Origin: Pseudomonas sp. SJZ074
GTDB lineage: Bacteria; Pseudomonadota; Gammaproteobacteria; Pseudomonadales; Pseudomonadaceae
DNA: 64,000 nucleotides
Reading direction: 5' to 3'
Assembly: GCF_007828215.1 (NCBI RefSeq)
Contig: NZ_VIUE01000003.1
Span: forward strand, 310,001 to 374,000
Part shown: piece by piece, positions 48,163-56,916 of the stretch
Layout: every line of letters starts with the position of its first letter
Numbering within the stretch: the stretch's first letter is position 1
Position numbers and translations under genes: made by a program
Notes under the pieces: model-generated
Told to the model about the DNA's origin: nothing
Seen by the model: only the letters and a program-made list of their open reading frames with translations
Database searches by the model: none

Positions 48163-48204
48163 AGCTCCCCATAAAACCAATTGGTCCCTCAAGGGAGTAT
48201 CAGC

Positions 48205-50121
48205 ATGTTCCGGTGGTTTGCCCAGGCTCTGGGAAACGTAAGCGTCAATCGCAAACTCGGCTTCGGCTTCGGCCTGGTGCTGTTTCTCACTTTGATGATC
48301 GCCTTCACCGGTTGGTCCGGCTTGGGCAACGTCATCAGTCGGGGCGACAAGCTGGGATTCATTGCCAGCCTGAACGACTTGAGCAAGGACTTGAGCCTGG
48401 CCAGCATCGACTACAACGCCACGCGGGGCGAGAAAGGGCCACAACAGGTCAACGATCTGCTGGGCAAGCTTGAGGCCGGGCTGAAGGATGCTCGCCAGTT
48501 GCTCGAACAGCCGGCCGATGTGGCCATGATCGACAAGCAATTGGCCGCCGTGACCGAATACAAAAGCGCCTTTGCCGGAATGACCCGCGCCACCGTCAAC
48601 CGCGAAGATGCCCGCAGTAAACTCGGCGCCAGCGCCGACAACGCCGTGGCCCGGGTCGCCGAGGTAGAACAGTCACTGTTGCAAGGCGGCGACGTCACCC
48701 TGTTCAACAGCGCGGTAACCCTGAGCAAAGCAGTTCAGCAAGCGCGTTACCAGGTTCGCGGCTACACCTATAGCGGCAAGAGCGAAGCCCAGCAGCCAGC
48801 CCTGGAAGCCATCGATACCGTGCTCAAGCTGCTGGCACGCCTGCCGGACCAACTGCCCCAGGAACATGCCGCCAATCTGCAACAGGCTAGCGATTCGTTC
48901 AATCTGTACCGCGCGGCGGTCGCCCAGTTCCGTGACTCGCAGATCGAGAACGGCGCCGCCCTCCAGCGCATGACCGAGCAAGGCCAGGTGCTGATCGACT
49001 CCAGCCAGAAGCTGACCGTGTCCCAGACAGCCAAGCGTGACCACGACGTCGCCCAGGCCAAGACCGTCCTGATCGTTGCCGCCGCGCTGGCCCTGTTGTT
49101 CGGCGTCATTGCCGCCCTGCTCATCACCCGGCAGATCGTTGTCCCGCTCGGCCAGACCCTCCAGGTCGCCGAACGGGTAGCCGCCGGCGACCTGAGCCAC
49201 AACCTGACCTCCGAGCGTCGCGACGAAATGGGCCAACTGCAACGCGCCATGCAAAGCATGACCGTGAGCCTGCGGCAATTGATCGGTGGCATCAGCGAAG
49301 GTGTCACCCAGATCGCCAGCGCCGCCGAACAGCTTTCAGCCGTGACCGAGCAGACCAGCGCCGGGGTCAACAGTCAGAAGGTCGAGACCGATCAAGTGGC
49401 TACCGCCATGCACGAAATGACCGCCACGGTGCAGGAAGTGGCGCGCAACGCCGAAGAAGCCTCCGAGGCTGCCGTTGCCGCCGACCAGCAGGCCCGCGAG
49501 GGTGAGCGAGTGGTTGGCGAAGCCATCGCCCAGATCGAGCGCCTGGCCGAGGAAGTGGGCCACTCCATCAACGCCATGAGCGATTTGAAGCGCGAGAGTG
49601 ACAAAATCGGCAGCGTCCTGGACGTGATCAAGTCTGTCGCCCAGCAGACCAACCTGTTGGCTCTCAACGCCGCCATCGAGGCCGCGCGGGCCGGTGAAGC
49701 CGGGCGTGGTTTCGCCGTGGTCGCCGACGAAGTCCGCAGCCTGGCCCAGCGCACTCAGAAGTCCACCGAGGAGATCGAGGAACTGATCGTTGGCCTGCAA
49801 AACGGTACCGAACAGGTCGCGACCATCATGGACAACAGCCGCGGCCTGACCGACAGCAGCGTCGAACTCACCCGCCGGGCTGGTGGTTCGCTGGAGAACA
49901 TCACCCGCACGGTCTCGGCCATCCAGTCGATGAACCAGCAGATCGCCGCCGCGGCCGAGCAGCAGAGCGCCACCGCCGAAGAGATCAACCGCAGCGTATT
50001 GAACGTGCGCGACGTCTCCGAACAAACCTCCGCCGCCAGCGAACAGACCGCCAGTTCCAGTGCCGAGCTGGCACGTCTCGGCGTTCATTTGCAGACGCTG
50101 GTGGGGCGCTTCAAGGTCTAA
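48205..50121 (+). CDS. Methyl-accepting chemotaxis protein, HBM-type sensor (first of tandem pair)
   Basis: Transmembrane chemoreceptor signalling to CheA/CheW. It has 638 residues from the ATG with GGGAG upstream. Membrane segment 1 is about 18-38; a helical bimodular-like periplasmic sensor domain covers about 40-290; segment 2 is about 292-313, then HAMP (about 314-368) and the signalling domain with hairpin tip [20 protein letters not shown] and following [11 protein letters not shown]. By position next to rsmE it resembles the P. putida citrate receptor McpQ locus, but ligand is inferred only from synteny. No CheR-binding C-terminal pentapeptide is seen. Confidence 0.92.
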
Positions 50122-50148: not shown

Positions 50149-50244
50149 GAGGCGGGAGCGCTTGCTCTCGCCTGGGCAAGCCGGCTACGCCCTGGATGGA
50201 CGTGCGACTGATTCGTAACCGAACAAGAGCAAGCGCCCTCCTGT
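50149..50244. repeat. Diverged REP-like inverted pair between the two chemoreceptor genes
   Basis: A hairpin GGCGGGAGC-GCTT-GCTCTCGCC is mirrored 65 bases later by AAGAGCAAGCGCCCTCCTG. The arms share GGGAGCGCTTGCTCT with the REP core but differ in several positions. Confidence 0.6.
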
Positions 50245-50264
50245 CCAGTCCCTCACCTATTTCC

Positions 50265-50291
50265 TACAGATCTGCATGGCATGGTCGATAC
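50265..50291 (+). promoter_or_regulatory. FliA (sigma28)-type promoter of the second chemoreceptor
   Basis: TACAGATC, 11 bases, then GTCGATAC, about 43 bases before the gene. It has the same spacing as the promoter of the first receptor with a slightly weaker -10, so the two genes can be transcribed independently within the flagellar regulon. Confidence 0.6.
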
Positions 50292-50333
50292 TCTCCTCAT
50301 AAGACCTACAAAAAGGTCCGTGGGAGTATCAGC

Positions 50334-52250
50334 ATGTTCAGTTGGCTAACCGAAAAGCTGGGAAACGTAAGTGTCAATCGCAAGCTGGGGTTCGGTTTTG
50401 GCCTGGTCTTGCTGATGACTCTCCTGAGCACCTTCGCCGGCTGGAGCAGCCTGAGCAGCGTGATCAGTCGCTCGGACAAACAGGCGTCCATTGCCAGTCT
50501 CAATGAATTGGCCAAGGATTTACGAATTGCCAGCCTCGACTACGAGATGCGGCGCGGCGAACAAGGACCAACTGCCGTCAGCGACCTGGTAGGCAAGCTG
50601 CAGGAAAGCATACAGACTGCTCTCAAACGGTTTGTACGACCGACCGACCAGGAACTGCTCAATCAGCAACTGGCTATCCTCGATGATTACAAACGCAGCT
50701 TTAGCGACCTGACCCAGGCGACACAGAACCGCGAATCGGCCCGATCCAAGCTGGGGGCCAACGCCGACAATGCCGTGGCGAAGGTGACGGAAGTCGAAAA
50801 CGCCCTGCGACAAGGCGACAGCGTCGCGCAATTCAATAACGTGGTCGAGCTGAGCAAACTGCTCCAGCAGGCCCGCTATCAAGTGCGCGGCTACACCTAC
50901 AGCGGCAAGGCCGACGCCGAACAACCCGCCCTGGATGCCATCGAAAACGTCCTGAAGAACCTTCAAGACCTGCCCGGCAAATTGCCGGAACAGCACACCG
51001 CCAATCTGCAGCAAGCCGCCGAATCGATGAAGGCCTATCGTGCCGCTGTCAGCCAGTTCCGCGACTCGCAGGTGGTCAGCGCCTCGGCCTTCAAGAAAAT
51101 GCTGGAGCAAGAGAGCCACTTGAGTGAGCTCAATAATCGAATGACAGTTTCGCAGATCGAGAAACGCGATCAGGAAACCGGACAAGCCAAGGAAACCTTG
51201 ATCATCGTCGCCGTCCTGGCGTTAGCCTTTGGTCTGCTGGCGGCATGGATCATCACCCGGCAGATCGTTGCTCCCCTGCAACAGACCTTGAGCGCGGTCG
51301 AACGTGTCGCCTCGGGTGACCTCAGCCATGACCTTGTGGTCGCCCGCCGTGACGAAATGGGCCAACTGCAAGGTAGCCTGCAACGCATGACCGTGAGCCT
51401 GCGGCAATTGATCGGTGGCATCAGCGAAGGTGTCACCCAGATCGCCAGCGCCGCTGAACAGCTGTCGGCCGTGACCGAACAGACCAGTGCCGGGGTCAAC
51501 AGCCAGAAGATCGAGACCGATCAGGTCGCCACCGCCATGCACGAAATGACCGCCACGGTGCAGGATGTGGCGCGCAACGCCGAGGAAGCCTCCGAGGCTG
51601 CCGTTGCCGCCGACCAGCAAGCCCGCGAGGGTGAGCGAGTGGTGGGCGAAGCCATCGCTCAGATCGAGCGCCTGGCCAACGAAGTCAGCAACTCCACCGC
51701 CGCCATGGGTGACTTGAAGCACGAGAGCGACAAGATCGGCAGCGTGCTGGACGTAATCAAGTCCGTGGCCCAGCAAACCAACCTGCTGGCGCTCAACGCC
51801 GCTATCGAAGCCGCCCGCGCCGGTGAGGCCGGGCGTGGTTTCGCCGTGGTGGCCGACGAGGTCCGCAGCCTGGCCCAACGCACCCAGAAATCCACCGAAG
51901 AGATCGAGGAACTCATCCTCGGACTGCAAAGCGGAACTGAAAGGGTCGCGAGCATCATGGACAGCAGCCGCGGCCTGACCGCCAGCAGCGTCGAACTCAC
52001 CCGCCGGGCTGGCGGTTCGCTGGAAAACATCACCCGCACGGTCTCGGCCATCCAGTCGATGAACCAGCAGATCGCCGCCGCGGCCGAACAGCAGAGCGCC
52101 ACGGCTGAAGAGATCAACCGCAGCGTATTGAACGTGCGCGACGTCTCCGAACAGACCTCCGCCGCCAGCGAAGAAACCGCCGCCTCCAGCGCCGAACTGG
52201 CACGTCTCGGCGTTCATTTGCAGACGTTGGTGGGGCGGTTCAAGGTCTAG
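50334..52250 (+). CDS. Methyl-accepting chemotaxis protein, HBM-type sensor (second of tandem pair)
   Basis: Chemoreceptor of 638 residues, exactly the length of its upstream neighbour. The cytoplasmic signalling half (about 385-638) is nearly identical to it, whereas the periplasmic sensor (about 40-290) is clearly diverged though still homologous (both keep [15 protein letters not shown]). This is the pattern of duplication followed by ligand specialisation. The ATG follows GGGAG at the same spacing as in the first gene. Ligand unknown; an HBM-type organic acid or amine sensor is the best guess. Confidence 0.92.
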
Positions 52251-52498: not shown

Positions 52499-52600
52499 AA
52501 GTTGAGCAGGAGGCCACAGCGTCCTGCGCCATTGCCTACAACTGCACCCGAATCCGCCGGCTTGTGCGCCTGGGGGTCTGGCTTCTATTGTTTGAGGGCT
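52499..52600 (+). promoter_or_regulatory. Promoter-like repeated module, copy 1
   Basis: About 100 bases closely similar to 53435-53535, sharing TGCGCCATTGCCTACAACTG and CCGCCGGCTTGTGCGC. It contains TTGTGC, 18 bases, then TATTGT, a plausible sigma70 promoter. It ends about 65 bases before the ATG of the next gene. Confidence 0.6.
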
Positions 52601-52664
52601 CTGTCGATTAATTACGCTTTCTGAGCATCAAACGCACGATGTTCATCAACTCACAAGGACGCAT

Positions 52665-53157
52665 ATGGAGACGATCATTGTTCGTTATCTCGAAACGGTG
52701 AACAACCTTGAACAGAATGCCGCGGTACCAAAACAGCGGCAAAGATTGCTACGTACTTTGCAGCATGCTCGAATGTGTATCGATCCAAAGAGTCCTGCCA
52801 CCGGTCAGCTACTTCAGCGAGGGAAAGAATACGGGTAGAAATGTAAAGTACACCGTGGCCCTCAGTGGTACTGAGACAAAACAGCTGAAAGCCTCCCTAA
52901 TTCATGCAGTGGGCGCTTCCGGTTATGTTCCTTACAATGATGTGCTGCAAACACAGCTTAAAGTTGACCAGCTGCAGGAGATCATTGATCAACTGAAAGC
53001 TGATCTGAAAGCCCGAGACGGGGCCTTGGAAAGACTTGTTCCTGTTCAGCATCTGGCCGAAAGGTGGGCAGTGGACATGGGGCTTGTGTTCGAGGAAGAA
53101 CTAGAATTCCAGCGGAATCTGGATGCTGCCGATGAGACCGAAACCGAGGATATCTAA
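52665..53157 (+). pseudogene. Gene of unknown function, probably split by a one-base frameshift
   Basis: An ATG with an AAGGA ribosome site opens a 57-codon frame ending at a TAG (52836-52838). The next frame continues from the same region to a stop at 53157. Removing one G from the GGG just before the TAG joins both into one 163-residue protein reading KEYGRNVKYTVALSG at the junction, with a coiled-coil stretch (LQTQLKVDQLQEIIDQLKAD) and an acidic C-terminus. The part of the second frame upstream of the junction has only a TTG start and looks like a shadow. Alternatives are two overlapping genes or programmed frameshifting. No family recognised; GC is lower than neighbours. Confidence 0.6.
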
Positions 53158-53284
53158 CAGGCCAGACGAGTTGACACCAGCGCCAACGGCCAATACCATC
53201 CACATACATGGTCTGGCAAAGAGAGCAGAACTCTACCCAGGCGACAGGGCTAATACCCTCTTCTGTGAAAGTAAAGTGTCAAAG

Positions 53285-53311
53285 AAACCGCCTCTTTAGG
53301 GCGGTTTTTTT
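53285..53311 (+). terminator. Intrinsic terminator after the unknown split gene
   Basis: Stem AAACCGCC / GGCGGTTT with a 7-base loop, followed by a run of T residues; it closes the 52.5-53.3 kb unit. Confidence 0.9.
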
Positions 53312-53390
53312 GTGTCCGTGAATTTTCAGAACGGGCTGATTAGTGACCAAGAGCATGCCAGCGTTCCCCAGTCAGGCCCCGTTACCGTTC

Positions 53391-53415
53391 ATCGCGAGCA
53401 GGCTCGCTCCCACAG
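53391..53415 (-). repeat. Single REP sequence before module copy 2
   Basis: TCGCGAGCAGGCTCGCTCCC stands alone without a mirrored partner and lies about 20 bases before the second promoter-like module, echoing the REPIN that precedes copy 1. Confidence 0.85.
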
Positions 53416-53434
53416 AATGAGGAGCTGTTGTGGA

Positions 53435-53535
53435 AAGTTGTGAGCAGGGCTACATCGTCTTGCGCCATTGCCTACAACTGCGCCAGAATCCGCCGGCTTG
53501 TGCGCTTGGGGTCTGGGTTCTATCGTTTGCGGGTC
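53435..53535 (+). promoter_or_regulatory. Promoter-like repeated module, copy 2
   Basis: Counterpart of 52499-52600. It contains TTGTGC (53498-53503), 17 bases, then TATCGT (53521-53526). It is followed by the structured leader of the DUF6124-like gene, whereas copy 1 leads to a short leader, so the two share promoter sequence but not leader. Confidence 0.6.
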
Positions 53536-53769
53536 GTTGCATCCTGTAGCGATCAGGTTTCGCAGCCTGGAATTATCAAGGCGCCTTGCGCCACCGTTTC
53601 CTTTCAGTGGGCGCTGCTTCGTCTACTGGATCGTCATGGCGGCTGTGCGCGGGATACCTTCGGGTATGCCGGGTTCCTTGATTCCCGGTCTGCGAACCTG
53701 CGTACAGCTGCCACCCTCCCTTCGTTTCGCAGCGAATCGTGGCGGCTCCATCAATCAAGGAGCATCACC
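53536..53769 (+). ncRNA. Highly structured 5' leader of the DUF6124-like gene
   Basis: About 235 nt between the promoter-like module and the ATG. Visible hairpins: GGCGC/GCGCC (53580-53592), CAGTGG/CTACTG (53605-53628), ATACC-TTCG-GGTAT with a UUCG tetraloop (53654-53667), CCGGG/CCCGG (53669-53688), and TTCG-CAG-CGAA (53726-53736). A 13-bp stem with two G-U pairs (53638-53650 with 53700-53712) encloses the middle two. Its 3' arm can instead pair through 53708-53715 with 53739-53746, just before the AAGGAG ribosome site, so two exclusive folds are possible. Confidence 0.6.
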
Positions 53770-54141
53770 ATGTTCAAAATCACACCCAATCCTCCGGAAA
53801 CGGACCCAACCTCTTCCTACACCAGCCTCGACCCCGAAAAACTCCAGGAAGCCACCGAGCGGGCATTGGATTTCTACCTGAAACCGAAACACGCCGAACC
53901 CGATAAAGCGCCACCCCCTGGCCAGCTCTTCACCGTTGTAGACGATATCGACACCGAATGCCTGCTGGCCAACCTCAGCGAGACCCTGGCTTCGGCCAAT
54001 GTCATGGCCAGCGACCTGGCGTTCGAGCTGGATGGACCCCGGCGGCATTTTGCCTTGGGCCTTCAGCAGTTGATCGAGTTGAGTGGTTTGCTGGCGGACC
54101 GGGCGCTGGATCGGGTCGACCCACGAGCTGAGGCCGAGTGA
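53770..54141 (+). CDS. Small DUF6124-like Pseudomonas protein of unknown function
   Basis: 123 residues beginning MFKITPNPPETDP, with a helical stretch LDPEKLQEATERALDFYL (about 20-38), the segment LFTVVDDIDTECLLANLSETLASANVMASDLAFEL, and a helical C-terminus ending in acidic residues. It resembles, from memory, the DUF6124 family, small cytosolic proteins found in many Pseudomonas genomes. No signal peptide or catalytic motif is visible. The start is set by AAGGAG 8 bases upstream, although the frame is open back through the leader. It ends before a repeat and a shared terminator. Confidence 0.78.
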   Translation: MFKITPNPPETDPTSSYTSLDPEKLQEATERALDFYLKPKHAEPDKAPPPGQLFTVVDDIDTECLLANLSETLASANVMASDLAFELDGPRRHFALGLQQLIELSGLLADRALDRVDPRAEAE

Positions 54142-54144
54142 TGT

Positions 54145-54272
54145 TGTGGCGAGGGGATTTATCCCCGCTGGGCTGCGTGGCAGCCCCAGAGTCTCAACTC
54201 ACCTGATCAGGATTGCGGGTTGTCAGGTTCAGGGACGCTACGCGTCCAGCGAGGATAAATCCCCTCGCCACA
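54145..54272. repeat. Inverted repeat of the TGTGGCGAGGGGATTTATCC type
   Basis: TGTGGCGAGGGGATTTATCC at the left is mirrored by GGATAAATCCCCTCGCCACA at the right, with about 88 bases between them. This is a separate interspersed repeat family from the REP elements, placed in the convergent gap before opgH. Confidence 0.85.
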
Positions 54273-54301
54273 GGGTATGGTGTCCACAAGAATCGTACCC
54301 A

Positions 54302-54342
54302 ACAAAAAGCCCCGCTTCCTTTTGGGAAGCGGGGCTTTTTGT
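54302..54342. terminator. Bidirectional terminator between the DUF6124-like gene and opgH
   Basis: Stem AAGCCCCGCTTCC / GGAAGCGGGGCTT with A and T runs on both sides serves both convergent transcripts. Confidence 0.92.
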
Positions 54343-54345
54343 ACA

Positions 54346-56916
54346 TCAGGCTACTTGAATCTGTCCGCTCACCGGCTGAAGCGGTAGCAGCGGTGCATGG
54401 GGATCAGCCTTGACCGATGCACGCCATGCCGCCAGCCATTCGGGGTGGCTTTCACTCCAGATCTGCTCATGCAGTCGGGACAGGGCCACCGGATCACTCA
54501 GTAGCGCCAGTCGCTCGCCGTTGTTGAGCCCGGCCGGGCCGACCTTCAAGGCATGACGAACACGTTCGACCCGCAACCATTCGATCGGCTCGGCCTGGCC
54601 GTGCCGGGAAGTCGCCAACGCATACGCCAGGGCGTTTTGCTGTGGGTCGACCACCGCGCGAATGAAGCCGTCGTTCAATGCATGCCAACGGTTCTCGTGG
54701 GTGTACTGGTCAGTCGACACCAGCTCTTGGGGTGGTGCGTATTCCTCAGGGATCAGGAACAGGCTTTCATCACGGGACTTCAAGCCCAGGCCGACACGGC
54801 TGGAGATCACCGACACCGGAATCGACAGCATCAGCGAACCGACGATCGGTACCAGCCACCACAGGAAGCTCGGGTTCAACCAGATCACCAGCAGTGCCCA
54901 GAAGAAGCCCAGCAGGGTCTGCGGACCATGACGCTTGACCGCTTCGCTCCAGGGCGTCGAGTCGTCGTCACGTTGCGGCGAGTTCCAGGTTGCGGCCCAG
55001 CCCAGGAACGCGGCGAGCACGAAACGGGTGTGGAAAATCATCCGCACCGGCGCCAGCAACATGGAGAACAACATCTCCAGCAGCATCGACACCGTTACCT
55101 TGAACTTGCCACCGAACTCCTTCGCACCCTTGGCCCAGATCAGGATGACGCTCAACAGCTTGGGCAGGAACAGCAGCACGATGGTGGTGGAGAACAGGGC
55201 GATGGCCTTCTCCGGATGCCATTGCGGCCAGAGCGGATACAGCTGGCGCGGCTCGAGGAAGTACTGCGGCTCCATCAGTGTGTTCACCGCCAGCAGCGCA
55301 GTGGACAGCACCAGGAAGAAGAACCACAAGGGCGCCGACAGGTAGGACATCACCCCGGTCAGGAACACCGCACGGTGCACCGGGTGCATGCCCTTGACCA
55401 GGAACAGCCGGAAGTTCATCAGGTTGCCGTGGCACCAGCGACGGTCACGCTTGAGCTCGTCCAGCAGGTTCGGCGGCAACTCTTCGTAGCTGCCCGGCAG
55501 GTCATAGGCAATCCACACGCCCCAGCCGGCACGGCGCATCAGTGCGGCTTCGACAAAGTCGTGGGACAGGATCGCACCGGCGAACGCGCCTTTGCCCGGC
55601 AGCGGCGCCAGGGCGCAGTGCTCGATGAACGGTTTCATGCGGATGATCGCGTTGTGGCCCCAGTAGTGGGATTCCCCCAACTGCCAGAAGTGCAGGCCGG
55701 CGGTGAACAACGGACCGTACACCCGGGTCGCGAACTGCTGCATGCGCGCATACAGCGTATCCATGCCCGAGGCCTTTGGCGCGGTCTGGATGATCCCCGC
55801 GTCCGGCGTGGCTTCCATCAGGCGTACCAGGCTGGTCAGGCATTCGCCACTCATGACGCTGTCAGCGTCGAGCACGACCATGTACTTGTAATCGCTGCCC
55901 CAACGACGGCAGAAGTCGTCGAGGTTGCCGCTCTTGCGCTTCACGCGACGACGGCGACGACGATAGAAGATCTTGCCCAGGCCGCCGGCTTCCCGGCAGA
56001 CGTCCAGCCAGGCCTGCTGCTCGGCAACACAGATATCGGTTTCGTTACTGTCGCTGAGCACGAAGAAGTCGAAACGATCCAGATCACCGGTGGCCTTCAC
56101 CGACTCGAAAGTCGCGCGCAAGCCGGCGAAGACCCGGGGGACGTCTTCGTTGCAGATCGGCATCACCAGTGCGGTGCGAGCGTCCTTGGGGATCGGCTCG
56201 TTGCCGGCGCTGGCGCCGGAAATGCGGTACTTGTCGTGACCGGTGAGCAATTCCAGAAAGCCCATCAGCGCGGTCCAGAAACCGGCCGAAACCCAGCAGA
56301 ACAGGATCCCGAACATGATCAGGATGCTGGTTTGCAAGGCATACGGCAGCACTTGCGTGGCGGTCTGCAGCAATGGCTGGTGCAGGACTTCATCCAGGTC
56401 CACGAACGACCAACCCTGGTACGGCATGATGCCTTTCATGTACCAGCCGGCGACGATGGTCTGGCCGAGCATGAGAATCAGCAGGATATAGCGGCGGATC
56501 GAGCCTACGGTTCGCCAGCGGGCATGGGGCAGCACCCGCTCATCCTTGGGCGGCTTCGGCGGGTTGGTGCGGCCGGTCATCCTTCGCCAGGCGCGCACCA
56601 GGATGTTGGTGCGCCATGGCTCCGGCACGACTTTGGTCCGACGAATCGGCGGCGTGGCTTTCAGGCGCACACGACCGCTGGAGTCGAGCCCCAGCATCTC
56701 TGCATCTTCGAGCTCTTCGGCAGTGCTCAGGACCAGCCGACGACCGACCGAGGCTTGCGCCGCCTCGGTGGGACCGTCGAAGGTCGAAGACGAGAGACGT
56801 TCATGCAATTCGCTGAAGGACTTGCAGCCCGCCAACTCGGCGCGCTGCTGGTCGGTCATTGGCAAATGGGCCAGATATTCGCTGAGCGTCTCTGGCGGTA
56901 CTGGCGTATTACTCAT
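54346..56916 (-). CDS. opgH: Osmoregulated periplasmic glucan glucosyltransferase OpgH
   Basis: Inner-membrane GT2-family glucosyltransferase (also mdoH) that makes the beta-1,2 glucan backbone from UDP-glucose and extrudes it. It has 856 residues. Several membrane segments lie at about 143-165, 190-215 and in the 515-690 region. The catalytic domain shows LVMPICNED (about 245-253), DADSVMSG (about 345-352) and the [11 protein letters not shown] (Q/RxxRW-type) motif near 490. It overlaps opgG by eight bases. Confidence 0.97.

Follow-up and report, generated by a model that had tools for sequence, protein, structure and literature searches.

Within a 64,000-nucleotide stretch of the Pseudomonas sp. 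SJZ074 genome (assembly GCF_007828215.1, contig NZ_VIUE01000003.1, positions 310,001 to 374,000 of the forward strand; this whole stretch is hereinafter the window, and its coordinates are used throughout), a small gene of the DUF6124 family is preceded by a highly structured leader, and the question raised by this locus is what kind of RNA the leader is and how it might act on the gene behind it. The first-pass annotation, which was derived from the letters alone, placed the leader at 53536-53769, recognized no known riboswitch core in it, and proposed that its mutually exclusive folds next to the start codon made a riboswitch, a thermosensor or an attenuator. The assignment of the gene is borne out: the product of 53770-54141 (forward strand, like all features of the unit; 123 aa; a predicted N-terminal helix followed by a helical hairpin) matches PF19619 with 103.6 bits, against a cut-off of 27. 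The RNA does match a known family: the leader contains a C4 antisense RNA, probably a self-silencing switch of the phage type.

When the 4227 models of Rfam 15 were run against positions 52500-55000, only one family exceeded its cut-off, namely RF01695, the C4 antisense RNA known from the phages P1 and P7. It aligns with 53632-53718 over its entire model (positions 1-87 of 87) and scores 85.0 bits, against a cut-off of 45, compared with 68.8 bits for the C4 of P1 itself; a covariance model (R1) built from a set containing the window copy gives 96.1 bits. No riboswitch or thermosensor family was above its cut-off in this region. The c4-a1b1 family (RF03163) matches upstream, at 53520-53573, with an E-value of 1.4e-6 and 35.2 bits, below its cut-off of 46.7. 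C4 has been known chiefly for its role in phage immunity.

The resemblance extends to the layout of the locus. In the annotated immI region of phage P1, the order of elements is a1, b1, C4, a2, b2 over the ribosome site and ATG, and the same order is found here (a1 at 53558, b1 at 53575, b' at 53676, a' at 53690, a2 at 53725, b2 at 53753, ATG at 53770), with the DUF6124 gene in the place occupied by icd in the phage. The spacing is similar as well: from the end of C4 (here, 53715) to a2, b2 and ATG, there are 3, 32 and 50 nt in the phage and 9, 37 and 54 nt in the window, and a1 is separated from C4 by 88 and 80 nt, respectively. The RNA has the same three stems as the phage C4. Stem P1 comprises 17 bp (53637-53653 with 53697-53713), as indicated by the fold and by covariation among paralogues, and includes the 13-bp stem with two G-U pairs of the earlier description (53638-53650, GGCGGCTGTGCGC, with 53700-53712, GCGTACAGCTGCC), which can be read directly from the letters, as can the UUCG tetraloop hairpin P2 (53654-53667); all five pairs of P2 show two-sided changes among the paralogues. 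Alignment with the model and comparison with phage P1, in which b' lies within the P3 loop and a' is the single-stranded segment 3' of P3, place the corresponding elements in hairpin P3 (53668-53689; loop 53673-53684; b', CCTTGATT, at 53676-53683) and in the segment CTGCGAA (a', 53690-53696), which is single-stranded in the cloverleaf. Both are complementary to downstream targets, namely, a2 (TTTCGCAG, 53725-53732), which occupies the place of the phage a2, and b2 (53753-53762; AATCAAGG at 53753-53760), which by reading of the letters overlaps the Shine-Dalgarno sequence AAGGAG (53757-53762). Upstream of C4, matching copies of the targets are present, a1 (53558-53565), identical to a2 in every letter, and b1 (ATCAAGG, 53575-53581). 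The hairpins and the competing pairing close to the ribosome site reported in the first-pass annotation are all confirmed; the element implicated in the latter, GTGGCGGC at 53739-53746, lies 10 nt 5' of AAGGAG, resembles a part of the 5' arm of C4 and is pairable with the 3' arm. The operon of P1 and P7 itself is absent: unlike the phage units, those of Pseudomonas are chromosomal, occur in tens of copies per genome and consist of a single gene, and in the window, instead of icd and ant, there is only the DUF6124 gene, followed by a convergent gene that, from a reading of the open reading frame, we take to be opgH/mdoH-like.

This is not a solitary locus. The genome carries 30 C4 copies, all above the cut-off, compared with none in the 14 control genomes. 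It also encodes 28 matches to DUF6124 (27 genes if two neighbouring pieces on contig C9 are counted as one), 22 of which have a C4 less than 600 nt upstream, and five DUF6124 genes lack a C4 even when the covariance model made from the genome's own copies is included in the search. Eight of the 30 C4s have no DUF6124 behind them: five precede other small open reading frames, of which the two at L009 and L011 had no Pfam match (E up to 0.1) and no NCBIfam match above cut-off, and three (L004, L025, L030) are not followed by any recognized gene. In one place (G000:C14:86832-87273), two C4s (L014 and L025), separated by about 350 nt, share a single DUF6124 gene behind them; the first of the two has no recognizable gene of its own, and two weak additional C4-like matches (L086) are located further upstream.

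The multiple copies allow the structure to be assessed by covariation, which the first-pass annotation had named as a mark of a genuine leader and which is indeed found in the 30 paralogues. In these, 96.4% of the 810 pair cells are standard pairs, and 14 of the 27 pairs show two-sided changes (eight in P1, five in P2 and one in P3). Not one of 500 shuffles reached any of the five measures of covariation, a test that can be inflated by the kinship of paralogues; a control with slid partners, which is free of that fault although it is biased towards a structure that was itself derived from a member of the set, lowers the pairing to 32-45%. The signature of processing is conserved, too. In a set of 91 units (taken from 100 with an assigned start, after omission of identical units and of those with the start at least 70 nt behind C4), the GG where RNase P would be expected to cut, which is shared with the C4s of P1 and P7, is present in 90, and the motif CC[AG]CC at the 3' end of C4 in 76, being absent from the other 15. 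RNase P processing of the P1/P7 C4 is reported in two papers (PMC5320573; PMC11143913) and can be predicted from these motifs for the Pseudomonas C4s as well.

The leader recurs across Pseudomonas far beyond this strain, as the first-pass annotation had suspected. Such units are also present in Pseudomonas fluorescens FW300-N2E3 (L143 and L144). Of 79 Pseudomonas genomes, with the present one among them, 73 contain a C4 match and 72 a match above the cut-off, with a total of at least 1248; these counts are lower bounds because 47 candidates were scored per genome. DUF6124 is represented in 60 of the 79 genomes (845 matches) and another family, DUF3077, in 58 (297 matches). Across the 79 genomes, the number of C4s correlates with that of DUF6124 (Spearman 0.88, uncorrected for kinship) and with the sum of DUF6124 and DUF3077 (0.94, likewise uncorrected); the six C4-free genomes lack both families, and 13 genomes have C4 without DUF6124. 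A relative with a single-contig assembly (G049), searched on its own, yielded 55 C4 matches, 52 of these above the cut-off. In a class-wide sample of 274 genomes, DUF6124 was detected only in the present one and C4 in 18; with 15 candidates scored in each genome, none of the others had more than six copies. We also collected the best 80 of at least 199 DUF6124 relatives from GTDB genomes, all 80 from Pseudomonas and leaning towards close relatives of the window protein, and searched their surroundings with a covariance model of the 30 copies from this genome; in 73 of these best 80 loci, a C4 lies on the same strand, 43-118 nt 5' of the start of the protein match. The remaining seven had no C4 in this search, one (L108) being cut by the end of its contig. 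The other six (L127-L132) have DUF6124 leaders in which, with the exception of L127, an a1-like hairpin (GGGACTGCAAGCCCG) is kept; these genes could have escaped control or could be targets of C4s encoded elsewhere. Among the 30 C4 loci with the highest scores in the genus, there are 11 (L031, L032, L033, L040, L043, L045, L047, L048, L051, L054 and L060) in which C4 precedes a different, Ala/Arg-rich protein of 52-57 aa, for which no Pfam or PHROG match was found at E up to 0.1 in the two cases searched, L031 and L033.

Comparison of these loci shows that, while the structured leader is real, its start had been set too late, at 53536: a conserved 30-nt box, CTACAACT-N2-GCCAGAATCC-N-CC-N-GCTTGT, which recurs in many sister units and is probably an operator or promoter element, is located at 53472-53501, about 150 nt 5' of C4. 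With up to three mismatches, the box is found in 21 places in the genome, 17 of which precede a C4 and four do not, and in none with the reversed-pattern control; with up to five mismatches, it occurs within 260 nt upstream of C4 in 18 of the 30 units of this genome and in 71 of the 73 GTDB units, the latter fraction overstating the prevalence in the genus because the GTDB set is biased. A probable promoter (TTGTGC at 53498-53503, a 17-nt spacer and TATCGT at 53521-53526), suggested by the consensus and the alignment of the paralogues, overlaps the 3' end of the box; the promoter scan gave no site at the leader. At the other end of the unit, an inverted repeat flanked by A/T runs (54304-54340) is a probable bidirectional terminator between the DUF6124 gene and the convergent gene, one that is not among the matches of the same scan. 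Several other features of the neighbourhood were observed. An orphan copy of the box, with two mismatches, is present at 52536-52565, before small open reading frames without a C4 unit, and the genome contains three further orphan boxes (L211, L216 and L217). Between the DUF6124 gene and the terminator, at 54147-54277, there is a long inverted repeat, imperfect and formed by GTGGCGAGGGGATTTATCCCC with its complement, which presumably is akin in kind to the REP/REPIN elements of Pseudomonas. Further upstream, two tandem open reading frames (48181-50121 and 50196-52250) read as chemoreceptor-like, with very similar C-terminal halves. A C4 adjoins the opgH-like stretch in three of the 30 loci that were fetched (this genome, G010 and G039), the stretch itself being present in 71 of the 79 genomes; BLAST comparison of the opgH-adjacent loci revealed no clean breakpoints.

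The variable loops of the RNA follow their own targets, though not perfectly. The P3 loops are all different, both in this genome (30 of 30) and in G049 (52 of 52, after two repeat sightings of the same places were dropped from 54 matches), and there are 13 types of a' among the 30 units here and 34 among the 52. In this genome, pairing of a P3 loop with the leader downstream in its own unit has an energy of -13.9 kcal/mol, compared with -8.0 for the other units (none of 20,000 permutations being as good), and the own downstream target ranks first for 21 of the 30 loops; with the upstream region of the own unit, the match is again unequalled in 20,000 permutations, the own region being the best in nine of 30. 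Taken alone, a' singles out the downstream target of its own unit as the best one in just four of 30 cases. The result is reproduced in G049, with -11.6 kcal/mol for own and -7.3 for other targets, a difference that none of 10,000 permutations equalled; 20 of the 52 loops there rank their own target first, shuffled loops paired with own targets give -7.4 kcal/mol, and the upstream copies are matched to their own unit as well. It is also reproduced in the 68 GTDB units that remain after removal of five redundant ones from the 73, although orthologous units of several species are still included in this set: again no permutation out of 10,000 did as well, and the own target was the top one for 29 loops. 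When the two contacts are summed, the own target comes first in 21 of 30 units here and in 33 of 52 in G049, and within the top three in 47 of the 52. Uninterrupted runs of at least seven Watson-Crick pairs between the P3 loop and the downstream region of its own unit were found in 21 of 30 units here, 35 of 52 in G049 and 45 of 68 in the GTDB set, compared with 2.4-3.3% of the pairings with targets of other units; similarly, runs of this length between a' and the own upstream region are present in 27 of 30 units, compared with 9.4% of other pairings. It is thus the two loops of C4 whose pairings follow the target: a' binds a1/a2, and b' binds b1/b2, which lies at the ribosome site. No part of the RNA varies more in Pseudomonas than the P3 (b') loop, in contrast to the alignment of the Acinetobacter baumannii and P1/P7 RNAs, in which a' is named as the only variable region (PMC5320573). 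Insulation between the units, then, is strong and incomplete: because several units share a', it depends on the P3 loop and falls short of perfection. Insulation may be under selection.

On the strength of the family membership, the P1-like layout, the covariation, the self-matching of the loops, the copy number and the link with DUF6124 and DUF3077, the locus is, very probably, a chromosomal C4 antisense-RNA unit that controls its own DUF6124 message through a C4 freed by RNase P. We infer the following sequence of events. A single transcript from the upstream promoter would contain a1/b1, C4, a2/b2 and the DUF6124 gene, and RNase P would cleave it 5' of G53638 to release a cloverleaf-like C4 of about 78 nt (predicted to span 53638-53715, by comparison with the annotated 77-nt C4 of phage P1). 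The a' segment and the P3 (b') loop would then bind a2 and b2, the latter overlapping the Shine-Dalgarno sequence, and so block translation of DUF6124, by analogy with the C4 of P1 (PMC8198154, PMC12197685, PMC5320573). The upstream a1/b1 may serve as a decoy or as a partner that opens C4 within the uncut precursor. Transcription of the untranslated message would probably end early, early termination being a feature of phage P1. Because the loops of most units match their own target, each unit would mainly silence itself.

The alternative that fares best, although we regard it as unlikely, is a switch acting in cis, without a freed RNA that works in trans: the precursor would fold either as the cloverleaf or with a1/b1 bound to C4 and the 3' arm bound to GTGGCGGC, and the balance between the folds would set the access of the ribosome. 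In silico, the structure exceeds chance: both the C4 part (minimum free energy -47.6 kcal/mol, z -5.7) and the whole leader, 53536-53772 (-101.7 kcal/mol, z -4.1), are more stable than any of 200 shuffled sequences. What speaks for the cis scheme is that, on base-by-base examination of the pair table, the cloverleaf is absent from the lowest-energy fold of the whole leader, in which a1 is bound to a', b1 to the P3 loop and the 3' arm of C4 to GTGGCGGC, and in which most of the Shine-Dalgarno sequence is paired with 53540-53545. Thus, two mutually exclusive folds do exist in silico, including the arm-leader pairing proposed in the first-pass annotation, and because the lowest-energy fold of the uncut leader lacks the cloverleaf, folding in cis could outweigh action in trans. 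The pairing of GCTGCCAC with GTGGCGGC can form; across units, exact pairing is weakly supported: own pairs are slightly better than others (-14.4 compared with -13.2 kcal/mol in 26 units of this genome, 6 of 10,000 permutations as good; -13.9 compared with -12.6 in all 91 units, 0 of 10,000), and the own partner is top-ranked in none of the 26 and none of the 91. There is also a precedent in the isrK/STnc1160-anrP locus of the Salmonella prophage Gifsy-1 and in the P4 CI RNA with seqA/seqC, where mutually pairing pieces of a leader govern downstream genes, an RNA from the leader opening a ribosome site in the case of IsrK/anrP (PMC4825925), and matches to isrK and c4-a1b1 overlap in two loci (L171 and L178). 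However, the isrK model (RF01394) reaches only 16.3 bits here, against a cut-off of 50, and the genes downstream of isrK differ by name from DUF6124; moreover, the RNase P-type GG is retained almost without exception, and the best-matched contacts are those between loops and targets, as in phage P1.

Another alternative, that the units are decaying, now functionless leftovers of P1-like prophage immunity, appears quite improbable. In its favour, two of the three genes behind C4 that were scanned outside Pseudomonas are of the antirepressor type (AntA and Rha), the third (L171) having no Pfam match, and in one Pseudomonas locus (L038) C4 precedes a gene with a Bro-N domain, also of the antirepressor type. 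Look-alike genes are found behind C4 at L038, L039, L041, L042 and L044, and the one scanned, L038, is the one in which Bro-N was found; loci of this type possibly link the phage immunity units with the DUF6124 units. In this genome, a few units are broken or have no recognized gene (L004, L018, L025 and L030). Against decay, one chromosome (G049) carries 52 copies above the cut-off, 22 DUF6124 matches follow a C4 in the present genome, and the loops and targets still match. Furthermore, DUF6124 was met only once among 50,697 phage records, in a prophage entry where it sits at the edge, and in none of 72,556 plasmids, with two loci in IMG/VR. Searches with the window protein itself (P0001) gave nothing in PHROG, NCBIfam or PADLOC (E up to 1) and nothing in Foldseek at E < 1, and among solved structures there was no clear relative (best E 0.79); its model, of modest confidence (pTM 0.49), is a helical hairpin, too plain to suggest a function. 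A diverged DUF6124 protein (L036) matches a phage family, phrog_6327, with E 1.3e-5, and a DUF3077 protein (L057) matches the same family weakly (E 0.016); because both match it and because L036 approaches the DUF3077 model (13.9, below the cut-off of 21), there are hints in these sequences that DUF6124 and DUF3077 are of common descent.

The original proposal of a riboswitch or an attenuator that senses a ligand or temperature, for which the structured leader with exclusive folds had spoken, was dropped as extremely improbable, given the full-length C4 match within a P1-like layout, the lack of any riboswitch family above cut-off and the divergence of the P3 loop in every copy, where a ligand pocket would be conserved.

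Among known systems, C4 is listed for "Proteobacteria, phages" by Weinberg in 2010 (PMC2864571). A further parallel is provided by the Group 1 RNAs of A. baumannii, 21 similar small RNAs in one genome, most of them C4-like in structure, which likewise have a variable recognition loop and show traces of being processed at a GGW motif; in the accessible part of that report (PMC5320573), their targets are unidentified, whereas in Pseudomonas the presumed targets adjoin most copies and match the loops. In the literature searched, no papers on DUF6124 were found, nor any title or abstract on C4 units in Pseudomonas chromosomes (with partial coverage of subscription journals), nor, with similarly partial coverage, a description of the Pseudomonas expansion, the tie with DUF6124 and DUF3077 or the self-matched loops. 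What is already known is the phage C4 and the C4-like RNAs of A. baumannii; these searches gave no printed account of the scale of the phenomenon in Pseudomonas.

What would such a repertoire mean for Pseudomonas? A tentative scenario, possible yet somewhat doubtful, is that a phage immunity switch was turned, genus-wide, into tens of mutually insulated, self-silencing units, with selection keeping the loops of sister units different, for which plasmid incompatibility is a proposed parallel. If so, a resident unit would be silent and an incoming unit with a new loop would be expressed on entry, and therefore the set could tag resident as opposed to incoming DNA; alternatively, the units may constitute a reserve of conditionally released DUF6124 and DUF3077 proteins. 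Because most Pseudomonas copies adjoin their presumed target, the specificity of these RNAs can be read from the sequence; a single chromosome, that of G049, offers 52 naturally occurring antisense RNAs, no two of which have the same loop, so that insulation and cross-talk between paralogous regulators become directly testable, and a regulatory context is gained for DUF6124 and DUF3077, both of them families without an assigned function.
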